From Deltaproteobacteria bacterium (GTDB lineage: Bacteria > Desulfobacterota > GWC2-55-46), in the NCBI GenBank assembly GCA_016177845.1, contig JACOUO010000011.1:316326-380325 (forward strand): 64,000 nt of DNA, read 5' to 3'. Positions 20,717 through 38,288 of this stretch are shown here, piece by piece. Position numbers and translations under genes: made by a program. Below the pieces are notes generated by a model. It worked only from the letters and a program-made list of their open reading frames with translations, made no database searches and had not been told where the DNA came from. Position 1 is the stretch's first letter, and each line of letters starts with the position of its first letter.

Positions 20717-21925
20717 TTAATCCTGCCGTTTAAGATCAAAGATACGGAGCAGGACGCCTAACACAAGTGAAAAATATGCTATGTCTGCCATCCTCTCGGC
20801 TATATCCTGTCTTTTAAAGATCATGAATGCCCCTGCTGATGAAAGAAGTATCATGAACGAAACTATGGCGATTGTAGCGGCATGCTTAATTAAAAACCAG
20901 ATAATCGAACCCGCCAGACCTTCGTCGTTTTCATGCGTTGCATTGAACTTCAAAAATGAAAATTTGGTTGCAATCCCTTTTATGGGTATTCCATCTTTCC
21001 TAACCTTCGCCATAAAGACAATAAGAAGCCTTGAAGGATAATACACGAATATGAAGGCGGCAGGAATAAAGACAAAAGTATAGAAACTGTCGGGATGGAG
21101 AACAAGTATATTTTCGGTCATTTTTGAGTAAAGAAATAACCCGAAAAAAGACAGCGCAAAAGGCGCATGCCACAATATGACTGTCCTAAAACCCCTTACC
21201 AATGAAATATCGTTTGCCGCGCGGATAAAGTTAGCGCCTATAACCCAGACCAGGAACATTGAGGCAGTGAAAAACAAATAAGCGTATGGCTTGTCCTTAA
21301 AAGAAGGTTCGGGATGATTCTCATCAAAAAAAATGAATGAGCGCGGGAACCTCTTACTTACGCCAATATAATTTCTGAGATTGATTGTTTCATATCCTGC
21401 CTTTATGTTGTGAGCGCCATCTGTTTTGAATTCGATTTGATTATTCCCTTCACTCAAAAGGCTTCCCGCAATATTAAATTCAAACCTGCTTAATTTACCA
21501 TTCCAGTCTGGTTCATATTCATATGCCCTATTGCCATTTACGGTAACAAGCACGGAAGGGCCTGATTTCATCTCAGGAAAAAACGCTCTTACCTTCACCC
21601 TCAGGGCCTGCGGGTCTGTGATTTTAAAAGGGATTGATGAACGGCTGTCTCCGCCAAACCATAAGAGAAATGTATCATTGCCCCTGATAGTCTTTTTATC
21701 TCTTGTATTTAGAATTGGGTCATCGGCAATAAGGCTGTTATCAGCTTCCGAGAGCATATCGAGCTTGAACTGCTCAAAATTCCTTGAGACATATTTGTTT
21801 TCAAAATAGGCATAAAATACGCCTACAAGAAGCATGAACGCAAGCATCAACCAGCTTGCGATAGAACCCGTGCGTTCAGGTTCTTCAAGAGATGCCTTAT
21901 CGGTTATAAAATTCTCAGAGCCCAT
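20717..21925 (-). CDS. Membrane protein with periplasmic beta-rich domain, unknown function
   Basis: A 402-residue protein. One membrane helix at about residues 24-42 is followed by a soluble, beta-rich region (about 60-200; includes VLVTVNGNRAYEYEPDW), which suggests a jelly-roll, then about five more membrane helices. GGAGGAGAA precedes the ATG. It overlaps the upstream 1065-residue gene by 11 bp and ends the tight eleven-gene run. No family is recognised. The mix of an extracytoplasmic sandwich domain and membrane helices is shared by its neighbours and suggests a role in glycan assembly outside the membrane. Confidence 0.7.
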   Translation of the reverse strand: MGSENFITDKASLEEPERTGSIASWLMLAFMLLVGVFYAYFENKYVSRNFEQFKLDMLSEADNSLIADDPILNTRDKKTIRGNDTFLLWFGGDSRSSIPFKITDPQALRVKVRAFFPEMKSGPSVLVTVNGNRAYEYEPDWNGKLSRFEFNIAGSLLSEGNNQIEFKTDGAHNIKAGYETINLRNYIGVSKRFPRSFIFFDENHPEPSFKDKPYAYLFFTASMFLVWVIGANFIRAANDISLVRGFRTVILWHAPFALSFFGLFLYSKMTENILVLHPDSFYTFVFIPAAFIFVYYPSRLLIVFMAKVRKDGIPIKGIATKFSFLKFNATHENDEGLAGSIIWFLIKHAATIAIVSFMILLSSAGAFMIFKRQDIAERMADIAYFSLVLGVLLRIFDLKRQD

Positions 21926-24900
21926 CTTCTCCTCCTGCTTTGCTTTCGGATTTCTTTTTTGCTATACCGTAGAAAGGCACAAAGATGAAAGATATGACCC
22001 CGGATGCGATTGACATGAATACGCCTGTAGTGAATTTCCTATGCGGAGTAAACTCGATGATAATCGGTGTGCCCGGCTTATCGACCCACCATGCGTTTGC
22101 GTACCCATTGACCATGTAATGATGCCTGAGTTCCTCTCCCGAACTAAAACCAAAGTCCGGCATGTGAGCGATTGCAGCCTCTTTAATTCTTTCTTTTGCT
22201 GAAGGCGTTATGTATGCCTTCCATCCTTCATTGAAGGCTTCATTGAAAACAAGCCAAAATGGTTCATTTGCTCTGGCGCCGGTTTTAACAATGTATTTGG
22301 ACGGGCTTATCTTTTCAATTTCAACTTCTTCAATTTGAGGATTTTCACCGTCTTCTTTGCGTATCCCTGTGATTTCCAGAAGCATTGTTGATGATCTATC
22401 ATTGCCGTTATATTTAAAAGTATGTATTCCGGCAGGAATATTTGTATTAGATTTAAAAATATTACCGGTTCTTTCCGCAGTTATACTCCTGCTATCCAAG
22501 ACAATATTAATCCTGTCAACATCTTTGGATTTAAAGGAGGGCAGGTTATAATAAAAATGAACCCCCTTGATTGTCAGCGACTGATTCTCGGCTTCTGTAG
22601 CAAAAGGATTCTTTTTCAGTTCAAATGATATCCGTACCGGCACATAAGTACTCCTGCCCGGATAACCAAAAGTCTCCTTAAGTAGTTTCCCGATATTGAC
22701 CGGTTCTTCTTTTTCGCCTCTTATGACAGGGACCCTTATTTTGCTATCTGCCCAGCCGTCATCATCTGTATCAAGCCCGATGACTGCATCCAAATCAAAA
22801 TACCCTTTTTGTGTGCTTGTTGTGGTTACTTTCAGATAAGGGTATTTTTCAATGTCAAAATTCCGAGATTCGAAATTTATTAATTTTGTAGCGCCGGCAG
22901 CCTGCTCGCCTTTCGGAAGTTTTAGAATGATGCCTTTTCCCGTTGAAAAATCAGCGCTCCCTCTAACAGGAAGCCACTCTTTCAGAGGGCCTTTTGAATA
23001 ATCTTCAGTAAACCCTGACTGCTCATCACTAACAGGACTTTGCAGCAGTTGAGCTTTCAGCAATCCGGAACTTGTGTTTACATATGCTTTTTTTTCAGTG
23101 CCGCTTACTTTCAGGATTTGGCTCTGAGAAATCCCTGCACCATCAAGGGCAACTGTCACTCCGTCATTCGGCAAATGCTGTTCTCTGTTATCAGAGTCAA
23201 CAAAAGCTGCCCTCGCAATACTTTTTTCCGGCACAGGCAACTTATCGATTTCATCTTTTTGTATTGTGAGAAAAACAGGATTTTTAGAGTAATCCGTCTT
23301 CATAAGAGTCTGCAGCGCGCCTGCATCTCCAAACAGGAGATTAGCTTTCTTTGAGGCAAACGCGTGCGGCAGGGCAAATCTGTTCTCATATATGAAAGCT
23401 TTCCCGAATTGTGCCGTTTTTTTTATTCCGTCCGTTTTTCCAATGACTTCATGCAAAATCTCATTTGAATCCGCATCAGGCTGATATCTCCTCAACACAT
23501 CATCCGTAACAGCTATATATTTTACGCTCAAAAGTCCAAGAAACTTTTCAAAACCTCCAAAGTCCCAGTCCCAGAACCTTTTATCAAAAGAGCCGAGAAG
23601 ATTATGGAACCCTGAATTCCCGAATATCAGTTCCTGACTGAATTTAACTGTCTGTGGGGCATCTATAACCTTTGGGCTGATATCGGTCGATGAGTAGCCC
23701 CATGCATAGTTAAGGTATGATTGATTATTGAATGAATGTACTCTGAAATAGCCTTTTTGCTCTTTGAGCCACCTGTTCAGGTCCTCATAATACGGAGGGA
23801 TGTCAAAAAAAATGGATGGGTAGAGGATATCACCTTGAACAGTTCTGAAAATCGTATTCCTGCTGAATATCGGCCACGAATGAAAGAAGATCAAGGCAAT
23901 GACAAAAACACCGGGAATTGCCCTGACAAACCTGTTTTCAGGAAGAACTTTTTTTATGAACGATGTCATTTTCGCAACACTGTAGCCCAGAAGAACGGCA
24001 AGCGTAAAAGTGTAAATAAGAGGAAAGTACCTGCTTGGAGCCCTGAATATAAAGAAGTACGGGACATTGGTATAGAGCCACTCATAAACCCCGGAAAACG
24101 GAGGAGCCGTACCTTTGGACAACCAAAGCCCAACGAGAGAAGCTGTTGAGAAAAAGAGGATATATCCGTTTCTGCTGAACAGAAGAGCCGCAAACGCAAT
24201 GACAGGAAAGATGAGCGTGCCGGGCCTGTAAAACTGGGTATTGAATTCAACCGCAGTAGGGTACATTGAGAAAAACCACATTTTCATCAGGTTCAGAAGC
24301 GTTGCCCAGGATGAATAATAATGCACCAGTTCAAGGTCGTTTGTCGTGAAAGAAGTTATCGAAGCAGCCCCGCTGTGTATTCCGGACCAAAGCGGAATAA
24401 ACCACCACAAACTTCCTAAGAACGCTATTACAAGGAGAAGTACGGCATTCACAAGCGTTCGCAGGCTGAATGTGGCTATAAGTCTCCAGATGCCAAAAGA
24501 CGCAACAAGGGCCGATATTATAAGAAAATCAGCTGAATGGCCCAATGTGACAGGATAGAAGAAGAGTACGAAATAAAACACAAGAATGAATTTCAGGTTA
24601 AGCGATTCCTTAAGTCCTCTCTCGACAAACGCAAGGTAAATAGGAAGCATTCCGTATGAGAAAAGTGTTATCAGCTCTCCCCTGTTCCATTTGACAACGA
24701 CAAAGGTATTGAGCATGTAAAAGATGGAACCGAAAAATGTGACAGTGACTTTCTCTTTTACATCTTTAAAAATAAGACGAAGAAAATAAAACATGGTCAG
24801 CCCGGGCAACATCAGGACTAATGTAAAAAATAACATCTGCCCTCTGTAAAGGCTGCCGGTCAGTTCAGAAAATATATACTGCAGCAGAAAATAAGGAAGC

Positions 24901-25112
24901 GCGCCTATTGAAAGCACATTCGGGGCGCCTGCGTAGAGCCTGTCGTCCCAGACAGCTATTGATCTTTTAAGGTCGTCAAGAGGATTCAATGAAGTCGCGA
25001 AGTCGTAGCCGCCGACTGCGCCGTACTGTCCCCTGAACCAGGTAAGAGCTGTAAGGCCCAGTATCACTATTAATGCTAAGTTGAGTATTGTTTGCAGCCT
25101 CTCCTTATGCAT
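21915..25112 (-). CDS. Very large GT-C-like membrane protein (YfhO/AftD-like)
   Basis: A protein of about 1065 residues. The N-terminal half has about a dozen membrane segments; the first periplasmic loop includes GGYDFATSLNPLDDLKRS and VWDDRLYAGAP, similar to the acidic loop of AftD/DUF3367-type arabinofuranosyltransferases. The C-terminal half is a large extracytoplasmic beta-rich region ending in FNEAFNEGWKAYI, a motif seen in YfhO-like proteins, and a last membrane helix. I chose the ATG at 25112 because GGAGAG lies just upstream and it overlaps the previous stop by 8 bp; an in-frame ATG also exists at 25145. It probably transfers a sugar from a lipid donor; donor and target are unknown. 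Confidence 0.75.
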   Translation of the reverse strand: MHKERLQTILNLALIVILGLTALTWFRGQYGAVGGYDFATSLNPLDDLKRSIAVWDDRLYAGAPNVLSIGALPYFLLQYIFSELTGSLYRGQMLFFTLVLMLPGLTMFYFLRLIFKDVKEKVTVTFFGSIFYMLNTFVVVKWNRGELITLFSYGMLPIYLAFVERGLKESLNLKFILVFYFVLFFYPVTLGHSADFLIISALVASFGIWRLIATFSLRTLVNAVLLLVIAFLGSLWWFIPLWSGIHSGAASITSFTTNDLELVHYYSSWATLLNLMKMWFFSMYPTAVEFNTQFYRPGTLIFPVIAFAALLFSRNGYILFFSTASLVGLWLSKGTAPPFSGVYEWLYTNVPYFFIFRAPSRYFPLIYTFTLAVLLGYSVAKMTSFIKKVLPENRFVRAIPGVFVIALIFFHSWPIFSRNTIFRTVQGDILYPSIFFDIPPYYEDLNRWLKEQKGYFRVHSFNNQSYLNYAWGYSSTDISPKVIDAPQTVKFSQELIFGNSGFHNLLGSFDKRFWDWDFGGFEKFLGLLSVKYIAVTDDVLRRYQPDADSNEILHEVIGKTDGIKKTAQFGKAFIYENRFALPHAFASKKANLLFGDAGALQTLMKTDYSKNPVFLTIQKDEIDKLPVPEKSIARAAFVDSDNREQHLPNDGVTVALDGAGISQSQILKVSGTEKKAYVNTSSGLLKAQLLQSPVSDEQSGFTEDYSKGPLKEWLPVRGSADFSTGKGIILKLPKGEQAAGATKLINFESRNFDIEKYPYLKVTTTSTQKGYFDLDAVIGLDTDDDGWADSKIRVPVIRGEKEEPVNIGKLLKETFGYPGRSTYVPVRISFELKKNPFATEAENQSLTIKGVHFYYNLPSFKSKDVDRINIVLDSRSITAERTGNIFKSNTNIPAGIHTFKYNGNDRSSTMLLEITGIRKEDGENPQIEEVEIEKISPSKYIVKTGARANEPFWLVFNEAFNEGWKAYITPSAKERIKEAAIAHMPDFGFSSGEELRHHYMVNGYANAWWVDKPGTPIIIEFTPHRKFTTGVFMSIASGVISFIFVPFYGIAKKKSESKAGGEDGL

Positions 25113-27024
25113 CTGTTCTCTCCGCTGAGACATATTCGTTTCCAAGCCTTTGTGCTATCATCAGTAGCATTACTATGCTAAGCCCGGCTGATATGGAATG
25201 GCTTAATGTTTCAAGATCAACGCGTGAGAAATAATTTATTTTTTTATAAAAAATAGAGACCAGCTGATATATGTCAAAGGGCCATGTATAAAAGACATAA
25301 TAAGGAAAGAAACCTGTCTCCCCTGCCCTGTCGTCAGCGCCTCCTGTATTAACAAAAAAAGAGCCCCATGTAATAAGCGCGGTTATGTATAAGCTGTAGA
25401 AGACCTCCTGCCTGAGCCTGCAAGCCCAGATGATAATAAAGGGCTGAAACGCAACTGTCCATGCAAGGAAGTAAGGAGCCCCTATATTAAGATATATTAA
25501 TGATGATAGAGCGAATGTAGCAGAAAGTGAGCCGTAGTCAAGTTCAGGTTTTTTCAGCCAGAGCCATGAAAGGAGCACGCCGTAAAGAAGTGCAGTCACT
25601 CCTACACCACCCAGCTTAAGCCCAAGATGCATGCTCATCCATGTTGCTATGCCCGCACCCATGACCCTCAGATTAAGGCCCGCGGGGTCGATTATCTGGT
25701 AAGGGATTAAGATCAGAAAACCAGGCGCAATAGCCAGAAGCGTCATCAAGACTATCTGTTTGAAACCAAAATTACGCAGATGGAAAAGAAAAGGCGGCAG
25801 CAGTAAAGCAGCCGCTGACATGTAAGCCATTGCAAGGCCGAAGACAAATGAAGCTGTATAGAATGCCTCTTTTTTTACAAAATAAAGACAGAGGAGCAGG
25901 AGAAAAGCGAGCCCGAAGTACATCGAATTAGCAGCAACAGTAAAAATAAGGATTGAATTGAATGCCCATAAAAAAACACCCCTGTTGCCCTCAAGCTTAT
26001 ACAAAAGAACTCCTGTCCCAATGACAAATGGAATGACAATAATCTTACTGAGAAGGAGCGATAAGGGCGTTATGCCATCCATCGTGCCAAAAAGTGAAAA
26101 CACAGTGCGCAGCCCTATGAGGAGCGCAGCTATCGGCGGAGGATAGACATACCTGTGGTGGAGCGCGTCGCCTTGAGTATAGATTGAGGCAAGCGTAAAC
26201 TCCTTAGTTTGCGTAAGCCATATCCAAAACCCTCCATCCGTATCTATCCACATCACGGAAAGAATTGAACTTAAGAGAATCGAATAAAACATATACATAT
26301 GCGCCTTGCATTTACGGCCTCTTTCTTTCCTTACATAGAGCCAGACAGCAACAGGAAATCCTATTATCAACATGGGAGCAAAAAACTCTGACATCTGCCT
26401 CGGAAGCATCTCAAACTGCCCCGGAATAAACCCTTTATCAGTTGTAATAAGAATACCATCGATATTAACCCCGCCTTCTGAGGAGCCTGCCTTGGCAAAA
26501 CTTATTGTGTGCTCCCCTGCCTTGAGGTTTGCCGGAATTTGAGCCCACCTGTACCTGTGTCTGCCCTCCTGCTTGACTATCACGGAAGGCCCGTCGTCGA
26601 TTTGAACGGCTAACTCCAAAGGCTCGGTTGAGCCGAACAGGTCAATATATTTAAATGAGTTAGTATATGCGCGCCTCCATAAAGCAAGGTCATGCGGTCC
26701 GTGATTGCCGAAATATTTTATCCAGATATGCTGTTCTCCATCTTCTGCCGTTTTAAAACTGACTGAAGCCGGAGCATCAGTTTTCCCTGTCATCAATCCC
26801 CTGCTGCCTGAGAAATTTACATCTCCAAGGACAATCCATGTTTCCTTTGAAAATGAAAAATCCTCAGCCTCAAGCCAAGTTGAGCCTTTTGGCATACTGT
26901 TGAAATGGAGGTACACAAGTGAGATAATAACAATAATAATCGTTATGGCAAAGCCATGCAGTAAAAGCCCGCCTGCTCTTTCCTCAAAAAATCGATATCT
27001 CATATAAAGGTATGCTGTTCTCAT
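25105..27024 (-). CDS. GT-C-like membrane protein with N-terminal carbohydrate-binding-like domain
   Basis: A 639-residue protein. After a membrane helix (about residues 22-40) comes a beta-sandwich region (about 50-205) that begins LEAEDFSF and ends GGVNIDGILIT, the pattern of CBM6/35-like modules. About ten membrane helices follow. The loop GDALHHRYVYPPPIAALLIG resembles GT87/mannosyltransferase-type GT-C enzymes. The combination suggests a membrane glycosyltransferase that binds a glycan outside the cell membrane. It lies 9 bp after a SPASM radical SAM gene and overlaps the next gene by 8 bp. The exact family was judged by eye. Confidence 0.7.
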   Translation of the reverse strand: MRTAYLYMRYRFFEERAGGLLLHGFAITIIIVIISLVYLHFNSMPKGSTWLEAEDFSFSKETWIVLGDVNFSGSRGLMTGKTDAPASVSFKTAEDGEQHIWIKYFGNHGPHDLALWRRAYTNSFKYIDLFGSTEPLELAVQIDDGPSVIVKQEGRHRYRWAQIPANLKAGEHTISFAKAGSSEGGVNIDGILITTDKGFIPGQFEMLPRQMSEFFAPMLIIGFPVAVWLYVRKERGRKCKAHMYMFYSILLSSILSVMWIDTDGGFWIWLTQTKEFTLASIYTQGDALHHRYVYPPPIAALLIGLRTVFSLFGTMDGITPLSLLLSKIIVIPFVIGTGVLLYKLEGNRGVFLWAFNSILIFTVAANSMYFGLAFLLLLCLYFVKKEAFYTASFVFGLAMAYMSAAALLLPPFLFHLRNFGFKQIVLMTLLAIAPGFLILIPYQIIDPAGLNLRVMGAGIATWMSMHLGLKLGGVGVTALLYGVLLSWLWLKKPELDYGSLSATFALSSLIYLNIGAPYFLAWTVAFQPFIIIWACRLRQEVFYSLYITALITWGSFFVNTGGADDRAGETGFFPYYVFYTWPFDIYQLVSIFYKKINYFSRVDLETLSHSISAGLSIVMLLMIAQRLGNEYVSAERTDA

Positions 27025-27033
27025 TGTTACGCT

Positions 27034-28107
27034 CTATATCCCAAGGGCCTTATATTTGAGAAAACTCGAAATCGGAAAAGTGACTCTTGGTTCTATATAG
27101 CAGACAGAGTAACTTTTTTGACAAAACCTGCAGTCCTCAAGTCTTTTGATATCATCTCTGTATTCATTGCTGTAATAGATATTTTTAATCCCTTGCTCAA
27201 CAGGGTAGCCGCCCTTCCAGCCTGTGCCGCCAAGGCATGGGTACATTTTTCCGTCCTCTCTGAACTCACAGAAAAACTTAGGCAGAAGACATCTCTCATT
27301 AAAAAGGCCGTGCGTGTTGCTATTTGAAAAATAATCAGGGATTGATTTAAGAAAATATGGTGAATTCGCTACATTCTTTTTCCTAAGCAGAAAACATATT
27401 AATTCCTCTATTTCGGCTCTGACGAACTTCTTTTCTTTTTCAATCGAATATTGTCTTGTTTGCCCGTCAAAGAACGGATGCTCATTCAACGGCTGGAATT
27501 TGTGAGTGACTCCGAGCCTCTCTACAAAATTCGTCAATTCATACAGTTCATCTATATTCCACGGAGTGATAACGGTATTGACTACGACCTTCACCTCATG
27601 GGCAAATCTTTTGAGGTTCTCAATCGCGTTTACTGTTTTTGAGAACGCGCCTTTTAAATTCCGGATGCGCTCATGGGTTGTCTCCATCCCGTCAAGGCTG
27701 ACTGAAACTGAATCAACACAGGTTTTACCAATCTCCTTTGCAGCCTCTGCTTCAAGCAGTATGCCGTTAGTAACCATATTGACGGATGGGATATTAGCTT
27801 TAGCGAAGTTTAAATATTCGAAAAAATTCTGTATAGTTAAGACCTCTCCGCCTGAGAGAGAGACGAAACAGCAGCCGAGAGAGGAAAGCTCTCTTACAAT
27901 CAATGAGAAAACATTTAATGGCAGAACGCCCTGATTAGGATTATTCGGGATATTACACATGATGCAGCGCAGGTTGCATTTGTTAGTAAGCTGAAATGTG
28001 GCCGCAAGCGGAAAATCCCTGCCCACCAGATAATGGCTCAAATGCCAATACGCGCTCTTATACAGAAGTCTTGCTTTTCCTCTTTTAAAACTAATGATCC
28101 TGCTCAT
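27034..28107 (-). CDS. Radical SAM protein with SPASM-like C-terminus
   Basis: A 357-residue protein with cluster motif CNLRCIMC (Cys44, Cys48, Cys51), the SGGE motif (SLSGGEVL) and a cysteine-rich C-terminal region (CLLPKFFCEF, CLGG, CRFCQKSYSVC) that would bind extra Fe-S clusters. SPASM enzymes often modify peptides, but others act on sugars and lipids. No small precursor-peptide gene is visible nearby. It is coupled to the upstream B12-type radical SAM gene by a 4-bp ATGA overlap and followed at 9 bp by the carbohydrate-binding membrane protein. The substrate is unknown. Confidence 0.85.
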   Translation of the reverse strand: MSRIISFKRGKARLLYKSAYWHLSHYLVGRDFPLAATFQLTNKCNLRCIMCNIPNNPNQGVLPLNVFSLIVRELSSLGCCFVSLSGGEVLTIQNFFEYLNFAKANIPSVNMVTNGILLEAEAAKEIGKTCVDSVSVSLDGMETTHERIRNLKGAFSKTVNAIENLKRFAHEVKVVVNTVITPWNIDELYELTNFVERLGVTHKFQPLNEHPFFDGQTRQYSIEKEKKFVRAEIEELICFLLRKKNVANSPYFLKSIPDYFSNSNTHGLFNERCLLPKFFCEFREDGKMYPCLGGTGWKGGYPVEQGIKNIYYSNEYRDDIKRLEDCRFCQKSYSVCYIEPRVTFPISSFLKYKALGI

Positions 28108-29624
28108 TCCAATGCGCCTGTGGTATCGAGTTGTTTACGGGTGAATATTTTTTTAAGGTGCTGGAGATAATAGCGGATATAATCAACCCCGCGCTCATGG
28201 CCTGTTTTAATGGATACAAATGCCTCACACGCAAGCGCGAACGCCCTTGGCATAAACCTGAGCAGTTTATAAAGTTTTGTTTTAATGAGGAATAATAATA
28301 GCCATGACGGAGCTATCGGCAGCAAGGCATAAAAATTCCTTAATGCCCTGAACACCTTCATCTCATCATCCCTTAAAGAACTCCCGTAAACATAAAGCCT
28401 TGCCTTGCCCTCCTCGATATTATCAACAGCCTCATCGCTCAATATCCCTGCCTTTTTTCCGTCTTCGGTAATCTCAGTCTTAGGATAATAGAACAAGGCG
28501 TAGCAACAGACCCTGATTGCCTTTGTTGTCGAATAAAATTCAGCTGTCTTTTCATGCTCCTTTGGATCAGCGAAAGGAGTGCCAAAAATATGGTCAAGTG
28601 AGTACGGGATATCGAGACTGTCGCAGATAGCAAGCGCCTTTTTGATCTTGTCATCCGTTTCAAAGGACCTTTTAAGCACCTCTTCCCTTGTCTTCTTATC
28701 CATTGTCTGTATGCCGAACATCATCCTGTTGCAGCCGGAATCCTTTAGGAGAGCACCCATTTCCTCATCAATCTGCCCTGTATATGCCATGCAGCTGTAA
28801 GGAAGCCCTATCTCTTCCTTGTACCTTTTTGTAAAGTCTCTGAACCATCTCCTGTTTGTGACAAAGCAATCATCCATGAAAGCGATGTTCGTAAATTCAA
28901 ATTTCTCCTTCATTATCTTTAGTTCATTGATAACGCTCTCCACGCTGCGCTGTCTCACATATTTTTTTTCTTTCCCGTAGACGCTTCTCCTCAGCACATT
29001 GTTGTAGCAATATGAGCATTGATACGGGCATCCTCTGCTTGTCATCATCATGTACTTGCCGTTGCGTATCGGGATATGCCTTTCAAAAAGGCCTTTATCG
29101 GGGTAAGGCAGCACATCGAGGTCGCTTATCAGAGGCCTTACTTCATTCCTGACTATATTGCCGTCCACCTTGAACCAGATATTTCGTATGTTGTGGTTTG
29201 TAATGCCCCTCTGCATGCAGTCTGTCAGTTCGATAATTGCCTCTTCCCCTTCTCCTACGCAGACCATGTCCACGAAGTCGTTCTTGATAACTCTCTCCGG
29301 CACTGCAGTTACATGTATGCCTCCAAAGATGATAGGCACATTCACTTTTTTTTTGATGTTGCGGGCCATCTCGCACGCCCACTGGTAATTATCAGTGCCT
29401 ACAGAAAAGCAGACCAGGTCGGGAGCACTCTTCTTTATCTCTTCAATGACATTCGCGTTCTTGCTGAACGCCTTTTTCAATAATGGGATGTCGAGATACT
29501 GCTTGTCATCAAAAAGACCCGGGTCAAAAGCGAGCTTCACATTGTGGCCTGCGCCTTTCAATACGGCGGATAGTATCTCTATGGCCATGCTCTCAGCGGC
29601 AAGATAAGCAAAGGTAATATTCAT
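28104..29624 (-). CDS. Cobalamin-type radical SAM enzyme
   Basis: A 506-residue protein with an N-terminal B12-binding-like domain (GGIHVTAVP and VGEGEEAI) and the cluster motif CPYQCSYC (Cys199, Cys203, Cys206). The C-terminal 130 residues contain a hydrophobic helix (ALLPIAPSWLLLFLI) that may touch the membrane. Such enzymes typically act on lipids, tetrapyrroles or glycans. Runs of A9 and A8 occur in its coding strand. It overlaps the next radical SAM gene by 4 bp and follows another by 30 bp. The pair may work in sequence. The reaction is unknown. Confidence 0.87.
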   Translation of the reverse strand: MNITFAYLAAESMAIEILSAVLKGAGHNVKLAFDPGLFDDKQYLDIPLLKKAFSKNANVIEEIKKSAPDLVCFSVGTDNYQWACEMARNIKKKVNVPIIFGGIHVTAVPERVIKNDFVDMVCVGEGEEAIIELTDCMQRGITNHNIRNIWFKVDGNIVRNEVRPLISDLDVLPYPDKGLFERHIPIRNGKYMMMTSRGCPYQCSYCYNNVLRRSVYGKEKKYVRQRSVESVINELKIMKEKFEFTNIAFMDDCFVTNRRWFRDFTKRYKEEIGLPYSCMAYTGQIDEEMGALLKDSGCNRMMFGIQTMDKKTREEVLKRSFETDDKIKKALAICDSLDIPYSLDHIFGTPFADPKEHEKTAEFYSTTKAIRVCCYALFYYPKTEITEDGKKAGILSDEAVDNIEEGKARLYVYGSSLRDDEMKVFRALRNFYALLPIAPSWLLLFLIKTKLYKLLRFMPRAFALACEAFVSIKTGHERGVDYIRYYLQHLKKIFTRKQLDTTGALE

Positions 29625-29654
29625 CCTAACTCCGATCAGTTTGAGCCTGACAAA

Positions 29655-31070
29655 TCAATTCGTCAGCGGCTCCTGTTTATTCATCTTGAATCTCAGAAAT
29701 GAATATGCGCCTATCGCATGCTTTCTGAAGGCATCCCATGAATCGATCTTTTTCAATCTCTTTACGATATAGCTCGGCCTGAAATAAAAAGACCAAAGCG
29801 CCTTTTTAGCCCATTGCTCGGCGTCTTTCACGAGATAAGGCGCCCTGTCATACCGCCTTCCTGTCACAAAATCCCTCCAATAGCTCTCCTCTATAATGCC
29901 TCTCTCAACAGCCTTATAGAAAAGCTCCGTGTTTGGCAGAGGCGTTCCAATCGAAAATATCGCGCCGTCGGGGTTTATCTCTTTTGCGAATTTTATTGTG
30001 TCCATTATCTCTTTTTCAGTCTCGTCAATGTAGCCCACCATGAAATAAGCCATTATCTCTATCCCTGCCTCTTTGGTCCATCTCACGGCATCCCTTATCT
30101 GCTTAAGGCTCGTTCCCTTTCCCATGCGCTCAAGGACACTGTCATTACCTGACTCTATCCCGTACCTTACAGTGTGGCAGCCTGCCTTCTTCATGAGCAA
30201 TAGCATCTCCCTGTCAATACAGTCAACCCTTGTCGGCCCCTGCCAGCGTATCTTGAGATTGCGCCTGATTATTTCTTCGCAGATTCCGTAGATATGGCTT
30301 TTTTTGACAGTGACCGTGTCGTTACGGATGTTTATCTCTCTTACTTTAAAATCCTTTATAAGGAACTCAATCTCATCGACTACATTTTTAGGGTCTCTGA
30401 AGCGCACTCTGTTATCAATTGGGCCTCTGATGCAGAATTTACATTTAAATGGGCAACCTCTGCTTGTTACAATCGAGCCAAAAGGATTTTTGGCATTGGC
30501 GAGCGAGTAATGGTCGAGGGGCAAAAGATGAACAGCAGGAAAAGGCAGGCTGTCCAGGTCATCTACTATGGCAATCTTATTTACATGAACCTTCCCGTCC
30601 TTCCTGTAAACCATCCCTTCAATTTTATCTACCGGCTCACCATTTTTCATCGCCTTAACAAATTCAAGGAATGTATATTCAGCCTCTCCGTCCATTGCGT
30701 AATCAACAGCGTTTGATTCAAGAGTCTCTCTTGGGAAAAGAGTAATATGAGGGCCTCCGACAACCGTGACCGCCTTTGAGACCTCTTTTGATATTTTCGC
30801 AACCGCAACCGCGTTGATGGAGATAAGGGTCATCGCGGTTATGCCGACTATATCGGGATTGGCTTTTCTGATAGCCTCTTTGATGCCTGCAGTGCCTAAA
30901 CCGAGCGCGTTGGCATCGAGGATTGAAACTTTTATTTTTTCCTTTTCCAGCATTGCCGCAAGATATGCGATACCGATAGGGGGCTGCGCCCCTATGGCCC
31001 TGTTTGTAGATTCAGGTGTCCATGTATTTATATTGCCTTCGTAAGGAGGATTGATGAGAAGCACCTTCAT
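29655..31070 (-). CDS. Cobalamin-type radical SAM enzyme
   Basis: A 471-residue protein starting MKVLLINPPYEG, the usual beginning of this family. I chose the ATG at 31070 because GGAGG lies just before it and it overlaps the previous stop (ATGA); an upstream in-frame start at 31166 would add 32 unconserved residues. The B12-like domain has VGGPHITLFP and the radical SAM core has CPFKCKFC (Cys206, Cys210, Cys213). The tail FYFRPSYIVKRLKKI is a basic helix typical of BchE-like proteins. It is one of three such genes in the tight run; the reaction is unknown. Confidence 0.87.
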   Translation of the reverse strand: MKVLLINPPYEGNINTWTPESTNRAIGAQPPIGIAYLAAMLEKEKIKVSILDANALGLGTAGIKEAIRKANPDIVGITAMTLISINAVAVAKISKEVSKAVTVVGGPHITLFPRETLESNAVDYAMDGEAEYTFLEFVKAMKNGEPVDKIEGMVYRKDGKVHVNKIAIVDDLDSLPFPAVHLLPLDHYSLANAKNPFGSIVTSRGCPFKCKFCIRGPIDNRVRFRDPKNVVDEIEFLIKDFKVREINIRNDTVTVKKSHIYGICEEIIRRNLKIRWQGPTRVDCIDREMLLLMKKAGCHTVRYGIESGNDSVLERMGKGTSLKQIRDAVRWTKEAGIEIMAYFMVGYIDETEKEIMDTIKFAKEINPDGAIFSIGTPLPNTELFYKAVERGIIEESYWRDFVTGRRYDRAPYLVKDAEQWAKKALWSFYFRPSYIVKRLKKIDSWDAFRKHAIGAYSFLRFKMNKQEPLTN

Positions 31071-32059
31071 ACAGCCTCCATCGACTTCATTAGATTTAAG
31101 ATAGCACCGACTTTGAATGAATAAAGAAAATCGCTTTCTATCAGGGCACAGTAGCATCCGTTGCATCCGAATTTTCCAAGGCTTCTGAAAGCCTTGTCAA
31201 AGCCCATCTTAAGCCCGTTTGGCCATTTGCCTGATTTAAAGACAGGGTAACAGGGGGCCACATCTCCTGTCGGAGTGACCGCGCAGTAGAGCTTGCCTGC
31301 CCAGCATTTACGCTTGTTTATTGCCCATACAGGCACCTTTATATAGTCGAGGTAGTCGAGAGAATGAACAATAGGAGCGCCTTTTTTCTTTAGCTCCTTA
31401 AGGTTTGCTATCAGTTTTTGGTACTCTTTGGAATCTGAGGCAAGCCCTTCTATCTTTGATGATTCTGATGAGTGAGAGTACTCAAGTACAGGCTGAAATA
31501 TCATTTTTACGCCAAGTTCTTTAGCGTCTTCAACGAGCCCGCACAAATGGCTGAGATTGTCTTTCGTTATCACTGTATTTGTCCATACATTCAACCCCGC
31601 CCTCTTGGCAGCGCGTATTCCCTCGATTACCATGCCGTGGGTCCCTTCCATCCTTTGCCTGTCATGCACTTCCTTTGGGCCGTCAAGACTTATGACAAGG
31701 ATATCGAGGTCTCTTAATTTGCTCACATACCTCGGCACAAGCGACCCGTTGGAAAACATTGTCGTAAATATCCCTTTGCTGCGGCAGTGGCTTATGAGGT
31801 CGCCTATGTCATCCCTAAGTAAAGGCTCTCCGCCGTTAAAGCTAAACCTCCTCATTCCAAGAGAGGCAAACTCATCTATCATGGTGATGACCTCTTTTGT
31901 TGACATCTCGTTTTCTTTAAAACGCCAAACCTCGCAGTACTCACAGGTAAAATTGCACCTGTAAGTAGAGATAAAGGTGACTGAAAGCGGATATCGCGCC
32001 CCAAAGATATTGGATTTAGCGACTTTTGAGGCGAAAGAAATATTTTTAAGTACAGACAT
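31067..32059 (-). CDS. Radical SAM protein with SPASM/HpnH-like C-terminus
   Basis: A 330-residue protein with cluster motif CNFTCEYC (Cys35, Cys39, Cys42), FNGGEPLL as the GGE motif and a C-terminal cysteine set (CWAGKLYCAV, CYPV, CNGCYC). It is shorter than most SPASM maturases and similar in layout to HpnH-type lipid-modifying enzymes, though I cannot place it firmly. It overlaps the following B12-type enzyme by 4 bp and lies 3 bp after the YdjM-like gene. With the protein at 27034-28107 it makes two SPASM-like enzymes in one operon. The substrate is unknown. Confidence 0.85.
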   Translation of the reverse strand: MSVLKNISFASKVAKSNIFGARYPLSVTFISTYRCNFTCEYCEVWRFKENEMSTKEVITMIDEFASLGMRRFSFNGGEPLLRDDIGDLISHCRSKGIFTTMFSNGSLVPRYVSKLRDLDILVISLDGPKEVHDRQRMEGTHGMVIEGIRAAKRAGLNVWTNTVITKDNLSHLCGLVEDAKELGVKMIFQPVLEYSHSSESSKIEGLASDSKEYQKLIANLKELKKKGAPIVHSLDYLDYIKVPVWAINKRKCWAGKLYCAVTPTGDVAPCYPVFKSGKWPNGLKMGFDKAFRSLGKFGCNGCYCALIESDFLYSFKVGAILNLMKSMEAV

Positions 32060-32062
32060 ATT

Positions 32063-32629
32063 CTAATCCTCTGCCCTGTCTCGCAGCACTCTGTCGAGGT
32101 TTAATGAACCTGTCTTAAAATAGAACACAGTCAAAAAAAGTAAGCCTGATATGAATGTTTCATACGCAAGCGCAAGCAGCGTGTGCGCGCTGAATATGGT
32201 ATGCAAATACCTTAGCTCAATGCCCATAAAGATTGGCACGGGCGATTCAAAATACCGTTCAGAAAAAGGAGAGAATAATTTAACCCCGCCCCTTTCAACA
32301 AGGTAATCGTATGTAAAAAAGTCGCATAGAGGATGAATTGCCATAGTCAGGAAAAGAAAACTCCAGAACCTTGCTGTTAGCGCGCTATCCCGTTTTTTCA
32401 GATATACGAAAATAAGCGTCGTTATTATAAAAGCGAACAGGAATGAATGTGTGAAGCCCCTGTGCGAGCCGAAACCCATAAAAGGAACTGTTATGAAATC
32501 AACATCAGGGAATAAACCGACAGACATAAATAAAGCGAGCCATTTGTAATCATCTTTGATTGATAGGCTGCCTTTATATGCCACATACATACTGGCGCTT
32601 ATTACAGAGTGAGCTATTGGAAGCGGCAT
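32063..32629 (-). CDS. YdjM/DUF457-like membrane-bound metal-dependent hydrolase
   Basis: A 188-residue membrane protein with the family motif set: HS near the N-terminus (PIAHSVI), FPDVDF, and HRGFTHS, which together give the metal-binding His and Asp residues. About four to five hydrophobic segments are present. Members of PF04307 are predicted membrane-embedded hydrolases, possibly phospholipase-like; their substrates are mostly unproven. Here it sits between two radical SAM genes with 3 and 13 bp gaps, so a lipid or lipid-linked substrate is plausible. It may help make or recycle the lipid-linked intermediate. Confidence 0.8.
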   Translation of the reverse strand: MPLPIAHSVISASMYVAYKGSLSIKDDYKWLALFMSVGLFPDVDFITVPFMGFGSHRGFTHSFLFAFIITTLIFVYLKKRDSALTARFWSFLFLTMAIHPLCDFFTYDYLVERGGVKLFSPFSERYFESPVPIFMGIELRYLHTIFSAHTLLALAYETFISGLLFLTVFYFKTGSLNLDRVLRDRAED

Positions 32630-32642
32630 TATCCTCTCCTGT

Positions 32643-34004
32643 TTATTTCTTTCCTATCTGAAGGACGCCGAAGTCAGCCATCCTGCGGATTACAAAAGGG
32701 ACCTGTGAAGGTTTTATAAACCTCAGTACATTCAACATCTGCCTTGGGCGTAAAAAGAAGCTCTTAAATGCCTTGGACGGTGCTTTCTCAAGCACATCTT
32801 TCCTGACACCCTCAGGTATCCATGTAACTTCCTGATAGCTCCTTTTCTTTGCGTCAGGCTCGTAATTGCTCCTAAGCTCATACCAAAGGGCAGAGCCTGG
32901 AAGCACATCAAGGAGCAGGAACTGCGCCTTATCAAGCGGTATGGTTTTGGCGTAGTCTATTGAATTCTGTATGGTCTGCTCGGTCTCACCAGGAAGGCCA
33001 AAGATAAAAAAGCCCTGGGTCATAAGACCTGCCTTATGGGCTTCATGCACTGCGTTGGTAATGGTCGCAAGGTCTGTTTCCTTCTTTATCTTTCTGAGTA
33101 TCGACTCATTCCCTGATTCGATGCCAAAAGCGATGAAATAACAGCCGCTCCTCTTCATCAGTTTCAGCAGCTTGGGAGTTATCGTATCCACCCTTATCCC
33201 GTTCGGAGTGGCCCAGCTTACCTTAATCTTCCTCTCAAGTATCAGTTCGCATATGCCTTCGACATGGCTTCTTTTAAGGGTCAGGTTGTCGTCCTCGAAA
33301 TGTATTTCTTTTACGCCGAATTCATTTACGAGAACCTCTATCTCATCAACGACGTTTTTCGGGCTTCTGTACCTGATGCGCCTGCCCCATATTTCAGGGC
33401 TCGCGCAAAAAGTGCATTCATACGGGCATCCTCTTGTTGATGTAATGGGAGCAACAGGGAACTTTTTTACGAAGCCGCCATGGGGCGCTTTTTTATATGT
33501 CCTCGGCTGCATCGACGCCCAATCAGGGAACGGGAGCACATCAAGGTCTTTTATGTAAGGGCGCTTATTTACGATTGTATTTTCCCTTGATATAAGGCCC
33601 TCGATGGCAACTGTAGGCTTGCCGCTTTTTAGACACAGGGTCAGCTCATGCATTGTTTCTTCACCCTCTCCTACGACAACGAAGTCAGCGCCTGTTCCGA
33701 TTAGCGTCTCCCTCGGCAGCACTGAGGCGTGCGGCCCGCCTATCACGACCTTTTTACCTGCTGCCTTGAGTAAACTGCAAAGGTCAATTACCTTAGGATA
33801 ATAATCACTGAGGCAGTTAATACCCACGAGGTCTGCATCAGCGCATCTTCTGACGATCTCCTCATTTGTAAGGCCTAGATTAAGGCCGTCAATGATTGAG
33901 GTATTAAAGCCCCGTTCCTTTAAATAAGACGAGATATAGCCGATACCAAGCTGAGGCGTTATCAGGTGGCTGTGGTAATTAGGACGGGTCAGGGTTATTT
34001 TCAT
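32643..34004 (-). CDS. Cobalamin-type radical SAM enzyme
   Basis: A 453-residue protein. The start is the ATG at 34004, with AGGAGG four bases upstream. The B12-like domain has IGGPHASVLP and VGEGEETMHE. The cluster motif CPYECTFC holds Cys193, Cys197 and Cys200. A basic tail follows FFLRPRQMLNVLRF. It resembles the proteins at 29655-31070 and 9074-10459 more than the one at 28104-29624. It is the first radical SAM gene of the run, 22 bp after the lipoprotein-like gene. The reaction is unknown; methylation of an unreactive carbon is the commonest chemistry for this type. Confidence 0.87.
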   Translation of the reverse strand: MKITLTRPNYHSHLITPQLGIGYISSYLKERGFNTSIIDGLNLGLTNEEIVRRCADADLVGINCLSDYYPKVIDLCSLLKAAGKKVVIGGPHASVLPRETLIGTGADFVVVGEGEETMHELTLCLKSGKPTVAIEGLISRENTIVNKRPYIKDLDVLPFPDWASMQPRTYKKAPHGGFVKKFPVAPITSTRGCPYECTFCASPEIWGRRIRYRSPKNVVDEIEVLVNEFGVKEIHFEDDNLTLKRSHVEGICELILERKIKVSWATPNGIRVDTITPKLLKLMKRSGCYFIAFGIESGNESILRKIKKETDLATITNAVHEAHKAGLMTQGFFIFGLPGETEQTIQNSIDYAKTIPLDKAQFLLLDVLPGSALWYELRSNYEPDAKKRSYQEVTWIPEGVRKDVLEKAPSKAFKSFFLRPRQMLNVLRFIKPSQVPFVIRRMADFGVLQIGKK

Positions 34005-34029
34005 CAATCCTCCTGAAAATGGTTATGCA

Positions 34030-35103
34030 TCATTCAACGCTAAAATCCTTATCAACCTGCAGCATTTCCTGATGTATCGCGCTGTCTTCATATCTGATAA
34101 CTTCCTGCTTTGAGCTGAATCCCCTGAAGAAAGACCTTAAGACAGAAAAGATACCAACAGATATCATCAAGACGTAAGCGCCCCTTGCAGCCTTTTCAGC
34201 CGATAAAATAGACCCGCTTTTAAGGGAACTTATCAGCAGAAAAATGGTTATAATGAATAAAGCTCCAAACGGAACGAAAGGCATCTTAAGTAAATTTAAA
34301 ATTGATTCTGCTTTTGCTAACTTCAGAAGGTTTGAAAGGATATATGAGCCAAGCAACAAAGCTGCCCCCCCCCAGACAATACCAGCCGTAACCTCAGCAT
34401 TTACAGGCCTGCCAAGGACAAGCATCAGGTTTGAAAGCACTGCCATAAGAAGAACAGCCTCAAGACTTCTCATCCAAAGCCGTTCACGCCTGTTCCTGAA
34501 GATGTTGAGAATAAAGCCCAGCAGCATGAACATAATCAGAGCCGAAAGCCCTTTGATGATGTCGTTGCCGTTTTTCTGCCCGCCCAGGCTCTTGGCTATA
34601 AGAGGCTCAGTGCCGCTTGACATTGAAGTCTCACGAATCAAACTTGAGCCCTGTTTGTAATTCCTGACCCTGAACTCAACATGTTCAGCTGTCTCCGGCA
34701 CCCTGACAGTTGTCTGCAAAAGATGCCACTGCCCGTCCCCGGGGTGAGGTTCGCTTTTGGAATCATGTCCTGCCCTGTCGGAAAATTCGACTACTGTATT
34801 TCCCGTAATATTTGTTTTAACCCAGGCCGCAAGCGTGACCTGAGTCCCTTTATACCTTCGTTTTACCTCTATGCTCTGGAAAAGAAATGGAGTGCCTGCA
34901 TTTACTGTTGTAAGTTCAGCGCCGTTTCCTTCCGAGCGTTTCACACTGCCTTCGCCCTCCATCTTCCAGTCAATAGGAGCCGAATCTTTCCATTTTTCAA
35001 AATCGGCATTCTTTAAGAGGTTTGACTGATTCCCGCAACTGCCAAGCAACATTGTAATGAGCATTAAAACAAAGAAATGAATCCTTCTGGTTTTGCAATC
35101 CAA
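34030..35103 (-). CDS. Probable lipoprotein with carbohydrate-binding-like domain and C-terminal membrane helices
   Basis: About 357 residues. I chose TTG at 35103 as the start: GGGGAG lies 7 nt before it and it follows the upstream stop by one base. An in-frame ATG at 35166 would overlap the upstream gene by 62 bp. The N-terminus is basic then hydrophobic and ends in a lipobox LGSC (Cys23). A region resembling CBM4/9 modules follows (NLLKNADFE..., VTLAAWVKTN, GDGQWHLLQTT; about residues 28-165), then about five membrane helices. A lipobox followed by membrane helices is unusual. A run of nine G on the coding strand (34365-34373) is a possible slippage site. The role is unknown. Confidence 0.65.
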   Translation of the reverse strand: MDCKTRRIHFFVLMLITMLLGSCGNQSNLLKNADFEKWKDSAPIDWKMEGEGSVKRSEGNGAELTTVNAGTPFLFQSIEVKRRYKGTQVTLAAWVKTNITGNTVVEFSDRAGHDSKSEPHPGDGQWHLLQTTVRVPETAEHVEFRVRNYKQGSSLIRETSMSSGTEPLIAKSLGGQKNGNDIIKGLSALIMFMLLGFILNIFRNRRERLWMRSLEAVLLMAVLSNLMLVLGRPVNAEVTAGIVWGGAALLLGSYILSNLLKLAKAESILNLLKMPFVPFGALFIITIFLLISSLKSGSILSAEKAARGAYVLMISVGIFSVLRSFFRGFSSKQEVIRYEDSAIHQEMLQVDKDFSVE

Positions 35104-35104
35104 T

Positions 35105-37501
35105 TTATATCTCCCCGATATAGAGTCCGTCAAAGTCTCTGAAGTTTTTCTTCTCAAACCTCTCAACTTTTTTTAATACTGCTCCGTTTATGCCTACTCC
35201 GAGTAATGCGCCCTTGCCTGACTCGTTTGCCTGGTCGAGATAGCCTTCTGAAAAAACAAGCGAACTGTCATCAGGCACTTCAAGCTCAAGAGTGGCACCT
35301 TTTGAACGGTTTACATGAATGCCTTTGATTATAAATTCCTTTTCTTGCCTGTTGACATTCAAGACTTGCTCAAATCCTTCTCCTTTAATTCTCAGGACTG
35401 CATTCTCAGTAAGAGCGCGCGCATTAAAATGAAGTTCGTAATCACCATCCCCGTTGATTGCAGTGATGGTAAGACCTGCTCTTTTTCCCATCCACATCCA
35501 TATCTTTTTGTTCTCAATAGTATGCGGGGGCTGAATGAATGGGTTCTCGATGACAAAACCGCCGTTTTTCTTCTCTGAATAATTTAGAAAATATCCGTTC
35601 TTATAAAAATCCGCAAAAGAGATATATGCCTCAGCAGGCCTTGCGGTAATTTCGTAGACTGCGGAATCATTGAATACGGCGATAGGCTTTAGGCCGCTTT
35701 CGCCTGCGATTATCGGATTTGGGATTTTATCTTTGCGGATAATCACATAGTCAACATTGAGGCTTGCGAGCGTTGAGACAGCGTTCAGCGAATTTGCAAA
35801 TATCTCATTTGCGGGCCCGCCCCTTCTGATGAAAGGCTTTAACGCTTCATTTGCGGGGCTGGGGTCATGCCCGACTGCTCCAAAAGGATTGACAATATTT
35901 TTCTTATGAATTGACTGGCCGTAGAAAGGCTCATACCTCTTAAGGTCATAGATGGAAGTGAGAGGATATTCGATTACTGTAAAATTCCCTTGCTGTAAAG
36001 CAAGCCACTTATAAGCCTGTGGCACTCTGCCCATCTCTTTTATGGAAAGGCCGGGATAGAACTCAATGCCAAGGATAAAGAGCAGAGGAAGATACAAAAA
36101 AACCTTGGCAGGATAACTTTTTATGCGTGAGTTGATATTATAATACCCCACCCCTGCAAGAACACATGCAGAGATGAGTATCAGCAAAGAGACCCTTCTC
36201 ACATCTACAAAGGGCGGCACAAGCGCATGGAAGTAGTGCATCGGTCCGTAGAGCGTAAAATCGTTTATTTTTATGGCAGGCGGTAAAGACAGGGCAACCC
36301 CTATCAATAAAAGGCTTATGAAAAAGCCTTTGTTCTTTATCCTGCCATCTTCATTTTTCCTCAAGGCAAAAAGAGTTAGCAATGTGAGCACAAAACCAAC
36401 TCTCACAAACTTGCCCACAAGCGGGTCAGGTGAAGGGATTAGGACTTCAGGCACAAAACTTCCAATCAAGGCATGATCCGGGGACGGTATAAAAAAACTA
36501 TAAACAGGAGCAAAATACGAGGAAGAGATACTTCTGCTCGCAGCGCCGAATATCGGGTACAAAAATACAAAAACAGCAATGACGCTTATCAACGCGCCTG
36601 CAAAAAAGGCAAATCGCCGCCTTGGACTTACTCCCTTTATTTCATCTATGACCTTTTGATATGCACCCTGAATGGCATCAGTATTTTTTGCTGATATAAA
36701 AAGCGCAACAGGAGCGAGAAAAAATACAGCTGTTTTTATTGATGGAAGCACGCCTTCCAGGGTGTTGTCTGCAAGGACAAATAAGAGGTAGGCTGCAAAA
36801 ACCGCCCCTGAAAATTTTAATGGACTTACCTCAAGGTTTGAAAATTTCAAGGCAGGAGGCGCGACCCATTTATATATAAGAAAGAGAGCAACCGAAAGCA
36901 CAATTAGAGGCCCGTGATAGCCAAAAGACAGGATAGAAAAGACGAGAAACAGGAAAAATAGCATTATATCTTTTACATCTTTGGTTCTGGCATACCTTAA
37001 TAAAAAGAAAAGCGTGAATGGCAGGTATTGTATCTGTGCGGCATCCATGCCGCCGGTCGCTGAAAATGTCGTATGGTAAGGAGAAAAAGCATAAGCAACA
37101 GCGGAAAGAAATGAGGCAGTTTTACACACGGTTACCTCATGGGCCAAAAGGTACATGCCCAAAGCTGAAAGGAAAAAAGAAAGCAGTATCATCACATTGT
37201 ATGATGCGACAGGCCCCCACAACCATGTAAAGGGAAGCGCAATCAGATGGTTTACAATCGTGATATGAGAGACCCCTACTCCGAACGGGCTCTCTACAAA
37301 CGCAGAGAAAGAAGGACTAGCATAGAGGTCTAAAAGTGAATATTTAAACCACCATAAATGCCAGAGTATGGCGTAAGCATCGTCAAGAGAGCCGTTTACA
37401 AACCCTTGCGGATTTGCGGCAATCGGAAAATAAACCGCTATCGTGATAGCCGCAAAAATAGATGCGGGGATCAGGATTTTTTTAATATCGCTGTATGGCA
37501 T
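35105..37501 (-). CDS. Large GT-C-like membrane glycosyltransferase candidate
   Basis: A 798-residue protein. About twelve membrane segments occupy residues 1-450; the first periplasmic loop has GSLDDAYAILWHLWW, an acidic motif common in GT-C enzymes. The remaining 330 residues are an extracytoplasmic domain with a beta-rich end. The protein probably uses a polyprenyl-linked sugar. It is the first gene of the tight eleven-gene run; its stop is one base before the likely start of the lipoprotein gene. Upstream are hairpins rather than an obvious promoter. No precise family is recognised, and the donor and acceptor are unknown. Confidence 0.75.
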   Translation of the reverse strand: MPYSDIKKILIPASIFAAITIAVYFPIAANPQGFVNGSLDDAYAILWHLWWFKYSLLDLYASPSFSAFVESPFGVGVSHITIVNHLIALPFTWLWGPVASYNVMILLSFFLSALGMYLLAHEVTVCKTASFLSAVAYAFSPYHTTFSATGGMDAAQIQYLPFTLFFLLRYARTKDVKDIMLFFLFLVFSILSFGYHGPLIVLSVALFLIYKWVAPPALKFSNLEVSPLKFSGAVFAAYLLFVLADNTLEGVLPSIKTAVFFLAPVALFISAKNTDAIQGAYQKVIDEIKGVSPRRRFAFFAGALISVIAVFVFLYPIFGAASRSISSSYFAPVYSFFIPSPDHALIGSFVPEVLIPSPDPLVGKFVRVGFVLTLLTLFALRKNEDGRIKNKGFFISLLLIGVALSLPPAIKINDFTLYGPMHYFHALVPPFVDVRRVSLLILISACVLAGVGYYNINSRIKSYPAKVFLYLPLLFILGIEFYPGLSIKEMGRVPQAYKWLALQQGNFTVIEYPLTSIYDLKRYEPFYGQSIHKKNIVNPFGAVGHDPSPANEALKPFIRRGGPANEIFANSLNAVSTLASLNVDYVIIRKDKIPNPIIAGESGLKPIAVFNDSAVYEITARPAEAYISFADFYKNGYFLNYSEKKNGGFVIENPFIQPPHTIENKKIWMWMGKRAGLTITAINGDGDYELHFNARALTENAVLRIKGEGFEQVLNVNRQEKEFIIKGIHVNRSKGATLELEVPDDSSLVFSEGYLDQANESGKGALLGVGINGAVLKKVERFEKKNFRDFDGLYIGEI

Positions 37502-37681: not shown

Positions 37682-37963
37682 TTAAACGGCAGCTTTTGTA
37701 AAAGGCGTGAGGTTCACCTTTTTGTATTCATCCATTACCTGGTCTTCAAGCATCTGCCTTGTAGGCTTATCAAGGGGATGCACAAGGTCCCTATAAGTTC
37801 CGTCTTTCATTTTTTTGGCGGGCATTGCGACAAAATAACCTGTGTTTCCCTTGATCACCTTCATGTCCCTGATAACAAAGCAATCGTCGAGTTTTACCGT
37901 TACATAGGCTTTCAGTTTTTCATCACCATCCACAGGCAATACCTTGATCTCTGTAATACGCAT
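37682..37963 (-). CDS. spoVG: SpoVG-family RNA/DNA-binding regulator
   Basis: A 93-residue protein, normal for SpoVG. The start MRITEIKVLPV and the central segment KGNTGYFVAMPAKKMKDGTYRD are diagnostic. SpoVG proteins bind nucleic acids and act as post-transcriptional regulators in several bacteria, well beyond spore formers. AAGGAGGG lies 7 nt before the ATG, giving strong translation. A hairpin follows the stop, so it is probably a single-gene transcript. It sits between the start of the glycan operon and the divergent purM; any regulatory link to the glycan genes is only suggested by position. Confidence 0.95.
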   Translation of the reverse strand: MRITEIKVLPVDGDEKLKAYVTVKLDDCFVIRDMKVIKGNTGYFVAMPAKKMKDGTYRDLVHPLDKPTRQMLEDQVMDEYKKVNLTPFTKAAV

Positions 37964-38245: not shown

Positions 38246-38288
38246 GCACATTTTACTGTGCACCAATGCACAGTAAAATGTGCTTTTT
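38246..38288 (+). terminator. Perfect 16-bp hairpin with T-run, without an obvious gene upstream
   Basis: GCACATTTTACTGTGC (38246-38261) pairs perfectly with 38268-38283 across a 6-nt loop (ACCAAT), followed by TTTTT on the plus strand. It has the form of a Rho-independent terminator. The gene upstream (spoVG) reads the other way and purM starts 160 bp downstream, so what it terminates is unclear. It could also be an operator-like palindrome. Confidence 0.65.

Follow-up and report, generated by a model that had tools for sequence, protein, structure and literature searches.

Eleven closely spaced genes on the minus strand of the 64,000-nucleotide stretch of DNA analysed here (the window), running from 37501 to 20717, probably serve tailoring and extracytoplasmic assembly within a surface-polysaccharide locus, in which radical SAM (rSAM) enzymes would modify a sugar or an undecaprenyl-linked intermediate. 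The cells that carry it probably build a surface glycan of unusual chemistry.

Composition of the gene run

Contig C18, from which the window comes, belongs to the 3.0 Mb genome of an uncultured deltaproteobacterium. Its ORF listing confirms the original prediction of a tight run: the eleven minus-strand open reading frames are separated by 30 bp or less or overlap. They encode three B12-type rSAM enzymes (R1, R2 and R3), two SPASM-like rSAM enzymes (S1 and S2), a hydrolase (Y), a lipoprotein (A2) and the membrane proteins A1, M1, M2 and M3. The long apparent overlaps are in part a matter of start-codon choice: R2 (29655-31166) most likely starts at 31070, which leaves an overlap of only 4 bp with S1 (31067-32059). 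Promoter and terminator scans within the run gave results near the shuffled background. Directly upstream of A1 is a SpoVG gene (37685-37960), at whose place the related genome G001 has two short ORFs, and a terminator-like hairpin with a 17-pair stem (38246-38283) lies between SpoVG and the divergent plus-strand genes.

The genome contains 53 radical SAM matches. Five of them fall inside eight consecutive genes, for which the probability by chance is about 1.5e-4, a value which presumes that the 53 are spread over about 2,900 genes, a gene number assumed from the 3.0-Mb length.

Radical SAM enzymes and the membrane hydrolase

The predicted division into three B12-type and two SPASM-like enzymes holds: the radical SAM domain is above the Pfam cut-off in all five proteins, and the B12-binding domain is above it in R1 (32643-34007, 454 amino acids), R2 and the divergent R3 (28104-29624). 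S1 and S2 (27034-28107) have no Pfam SPASM match at E<=0.001. In both, the CxxxCxxC motif is followed by a C-x6-C-x10-C ... CxxC-x(1,6)-C block, and because this block resembles SPASM-type auxiliary clusters, the label SPASM-like is fair. Y (32063-32629) is, as predicted, a YdjM-family membrane metal-dependent hydrolase (Pfam, 70.5 bits, cut-off 29), with potential metal ligands H7, D42, D44, H56, H61, H99 and D103 invariant in three aligned sequences.

None of the five rSAM proteins belongs to a characterised equivalog: every NCBIfam equivalog score is far below its cut-off. HpnJ is the top family for R1 and R3, and its scores across R1-R3 are 119-197 bits against a cut-off of 577.6. For R1, HpnJ (178.6 bits) is nearly equalled by the P-methyltransferase Sden_1168 (175.6 bits), while R2 scores 222 bits with BchE (cut-off 481) and 197 with HpnJ (cut-off 578). 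Overall, HpnJ or BchE ranks first for R1-R3, and Sden_1168 and the ladderane enzyme follow. S1 matches HpnH with 82 bits over residues 3-242 (cut-off 225), with PTO1314 and heme-type rSAM families scoring above HpnH; AhbD scores 85-93 bits for S2 and S1 (cut-off 500), and S2 shows a weak match (E 6.5e-4) to the tetraether synthase Tes.

PMC13142503 lists HpnJ, BchE and ladderane synthase among the B12-rSAM enzymes that do not methylate. This list and the relative HMM scores are the sole source of a weak lean of R1-R3 towards ring-forming or rearranging enzymes of the BchE, HpnJ or ladderane type over plain C-methylation. The lean is weak because the scores are far below the cut-offs and R1 is about equally close to Sden_1168; the sequence scores of R1-R3 do not separate methylases from ring-forming members.

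A match to characterised enzymes of hopanoid or tetrapyrrole synthesis, which would have spoken against the original prediction, was not found. The hopanoid side-chain enzymes HpnH and HpnJ offer a parallel in the mix of SPASM-like, HpnH-like and B12-binding rSAM proteins, with R1 and R3 nearest to HpnJ, but the scores here are far too low, the genes lie in a glycan locus, and searches of the source genome for the squalene-hopene cyclase N-terminal domain (PF13249) returned no match (a B. subtilis control was positive). Hopanoid biosynthesis was thus ruled out by the scores and the missing cyclase domain, and heme or chlorophyll synthesis (BchE, AhbC, AhbD, NirJ) by the BchE and AhbD scores. 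A literature search of open papers returned nothing on point about cobalamin rSAM enzymes in polysaccharide loci.

Membrane proteins and carbohydrate-binding domains

All four membrane proteins were originally taken for GT-C enzymes. A1, M1 and M2 do look GT-C-like, and in the sequence of each an acidic motif can be seen in the predicted first extracytoplasmic loop; M3 does not. M2 (21915-25145, 1076 amino acids) appears to be a GT-C protein of the AftD type, a weak but real assignment. Its family profile matches the structures 6w98 and 6wbx (E 5e-11) of AftD, a mycobacterial GT-C arabinofuranosyltransferase, and its paralogues exceed the Pfam AftD cut-off, whereas M2 itself is just below it (24.5 bits, cut-off 26). 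A1 (35105-37501, 798 amino acids; acidic first-loop motif NGSLDDAYAILW) exceeds the Pfam cut-off for DUF2079, with PMT_2 below cut-off, and a profile-profile match to the M2 family (96% probability) makes it a remote relative of M2.

M1 (25105-27024) has an N-terminal extracytoplasmic domain that in the predicted structure matches CBM35/CBM6 folds, followed by a membrane part that can be called GT-C-like from its topology and its acidic first-loop motif (IDTDGGFWIWL) only; AlphaFold models this part with low confidence (mean pLDDT 45). An alignment of M1 with the GT-C paralogue of the C16 locus was dropped: identity was 23% and the outer domain is not common to both.

M3 (20717-21925, 402 amino acids) has about six TM helices, one preceding a carbohydrate-binding-like beta sandwich and about five following it. 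The beta sandwich matches CBM35/CBM6 folds with moderate confidence in the predicted structure. The protein is too short for a GT-C and its topology is unsuited, so the three GT-C proteins originally placed at the end of the run become two. A2 (34030-35166) is a lipoprotein with the lipobox LLGSC, a weak CBM_4_9-like domain (E 0.006, below cut-off) and then several TM helices. Homology between M3 and A2 was rejected, as profile comparison gave it 8% probability.

The surrounding polysaccharide locus

Beyond M3, the same strand continues with a Wzx-type polysaccharide flippase (19076-20497; PF01943, 83.7 bits, cut-off 28.2), a PMT_2-like GT-C protein (17632-19053; Pfam, below cut-off), two GT4 glycosyltransferases found by profile match (16417-17523 and 15284-16420) and a WcaJ-type undecaprenyl-phosphate glucose phosphotransferase (13879-15282; TIGR03023, 523.6 bits, equivalog cut-off 410.75). 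Past WcaJ are an epimerase, a MurJ-like flippase, R0 (9074-10459, minus strand), which is the sixth B12-binding rSAM enzyme of the glycan locus, a methyltransferase, two GT4s, a GT9 and a UDP-sugar dehydrogenase. From these same-strand neighbours, the eleven genes form the distal end of a glycan locus that spans about 35 kb. The suspected lipid-linked glycan context is thus supported by WcaJ, Wzx and the GT4s, while the idea of a stand-alone undescribed system gives way to that of one part of a larger, otherwise conventional polysaccharide locus.

With a WcaJ initiator, a Wzx flippase, GT4s and nucleotide-sugar genes, the locus has the makings of an undecaprenyl-linked polysaccharide locus of the WcaJ/Wzx type. 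It differs from these in having several GT-C proteins and six rSAM enzymes, and no Wzy-type polymerase or ligase was found in it, the PF04932 matches of the genome all being at other sites. The genome's 36 PF00535 (GT2) matches all fall outside the window, so lipid-linked donors for the GT-C proteins would come from elsewhere in the genome.

Conservation of the run in relatives

The expectation that relatives would conserve the gene order was borne out. Within the taxonomic order, five other genomes, from three further genera and two families, have all or parts of the block with the gene order unchanged: A1-A2-R1-Y-S1-R2-R3-S2-(M1)-M2-M3-(wzx)-PMT-GT4-GT4-WcaJ. In G008 it is on a single contig and complete except for wzx. 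In G001 it is on two contigs with a 431-bp overlap at their ends (98% identity), and it is without M1 and stops in the second GT4; in G016, G033 and G013 it is in fragments. M1 is missing from genus g2. G008 and G001 have the whole series R1-Y-S1-R2-R3-S2 in this order, and G013, G016 and G033 have parts of it.

The rSAM proteins are the best-conserved part of the block, with 59-84% identity between other members of the order and the window. Y is about 60% identical, A1, M1 and the membrane part of M2 about 47-60%, and A2 and M3 33-41%. Despite the rSAM identity, GC content differs between the window (46%) and the related locus L038 (58%).

R3 scores above 900 bits in five genomes when searched against 63 genomes of the class; in G016, the rest of the locus is present and the contig ends before R3. 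A search of 395 genomes of the phylum gave no further close match, and the distant R3 homologs of G059 (428 bits) and G092 (411 bits) both occur without the cassette. A scan of named genomes with R3 returned loci mainly labelled Deltaproteobacteria, mostly groundwater MAGs, and a scan of genome contigs returned five close matches, one labelled Parcubacteria. This last contig (L060, 37% GC), whose label may be a binning error, carries R1, a single open frame for Y plus S1, then R3, an additional rSAM gene and S2, with R2 absent between S1 and R3. The single frame of Y and S1 (989-2611, 540 amino acids) would be a natural fusion or the product of a lost stop codon; as it is seen on one contig, it could be a sequencing error.

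A proposed pathway and its alternatives

From the gene content, locus context, conserved order and domain assignments we infer the following action of the rSAM enzymes on this glycan, with its order of steps and types of reaction. WcaJ would transfer a hexose phosphate, probably that of glucose, onto undecaprenyl phosphate, and the GT4 enzymes would lengthen the chain in the cytoplasm. At the inner membrane face, the five rSAM enzymes, together with the membrane hydrolase Y near S1, may alter either a sugar residue or the lipid-linked intermediate, and Wzx would flip the modified product. Outside, A1, M1 and M2 would attach more sugars from polyprenyl-phosphate donors made elsewhere in the genome, presumably assisted by the carbohydrate-binding domains of A2, M1 and M3. 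In the original proposal, the lipid-linked glycan context and the conserved order find support, the modification of the glycan or its lipid carrier by the rSAM enzymes is a probable reading, and M3 drops out as a GT-C. The other rSAM clusters of the genome likewise sit among glycan genes.

The main rival has the rSAM enzymes modify a membrane lipid of the isoprenoid, polyprenol or tetraether type, which the GT-C proteins then glycosylate into a glycolipid. We regard this as distinctly less likely than modification of the glycan, but not negligible: the nearest B12-rSAM families include the lipid enzymes HpnJ and ladderane synthase, S1 and S2 resemble HpnH and Tes to the extent given above, and Y is a membrane protein whose frame is joined to that of S1 in L060. 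However, the cyclase domain is absent from the genome, the families that S1 prefers to HpnH are PTO1314 and the heme-type enzymes, the run holds no isoprenoid or lipid synthesis gene, WcaJ in the same locus initiates an undecaprenyl-linked sugar chain, and M1 and M3 carry carbohydrate-binding-like outer domains.

It is improbable that the eleven genes are not one functional unit at all but a loose rSAM set of independent decorations in a variable glycan island. The gene order common to G008 and G001, partly kept in G013, G016 and G033, and the high conservation of the rSAM proteins oppose it, even if the recurrent rSAM-rich glycan loci of the genome and class have differing rSAM sets, L060 replaces R2 by nothing between S1 and R3 while holding an additional rSAM gene, and genus g2 does without M1. 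Least credible, and rejected here, is that a ribosomal peptide is matured by S1, S2 and the B12 enzymes and later glycosylated or displayed: SPASM-type enzymes are often peptide-maturing, and several peptide maturases appear among the lower-scoring NCBIfam neighbours of S1 and S2, but the run leaves no space for a precursor gene, the small ORFs in the two flanking gaps are unlike a precursor, and no peptidase or peptide exporter is present in the run.

A more specific version of the glycan pathway, involving ring chemistry, is in our view doubtful. It would make R1-Y-S1-R2-R3-S2 a new multi-step radical pathway, partly membrane-anchored via Y and S1, that, ahead of export, converts a sugar of the undecaprenyl-linked glycan to a residue that is carbocyclic, ring-contracted or carbon-carbon-linked; we think it unlikely, and if true it would amount to a glycan chemistry not described so far. 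More generally, should the glycan be the substrate of the rSAM enzymes, these bacteria would devote five or six oxygen-sensitive radical enzymes to one surface polymer, the short list of non-methylating B12-rSAM reactions would grow, and surface glycans would be a place to seek such reactions.

Other radical SAM-rich glycan loci

The density of rSAM genes, at first thought to be exceptional, is not unique to the run. The source genome has further rSAM-rich glycan loci on C16, C5 and C9, those on C16 and C5 with M2-like GT-C proteins, and a class relative has six rSAM genes within 12 kb. Since such loci, related to the run but with other rSAM sets, recur in the genome and across the class, density alone is a habit of the lineage, and the specific feature of the run is its conserved gene set and order.

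Four rSAM genes lie close together in the C16 locus (140000-178000; L031/L032), which also encodes a carbamoyltransferase, an FAD amine-oxidase-like protein and an AftD-type GT-C that scores above the Pfam cut-off; loci resembling it are present in G013 and G008. The C5 locus (230000-266000; L033/L034) encodes DUF2079 and AftD-type GT-C proteins and a GT2-methyltransferase fusion (L033, 14749-16281). In the class relative, the six rSAM genes (L080, 2125-13948) lie among glycosyltransferases in a glycan-type locus; one of them has a Pfam SPASM domain, and the locus adjoins an asparagine-synthase-like gene.
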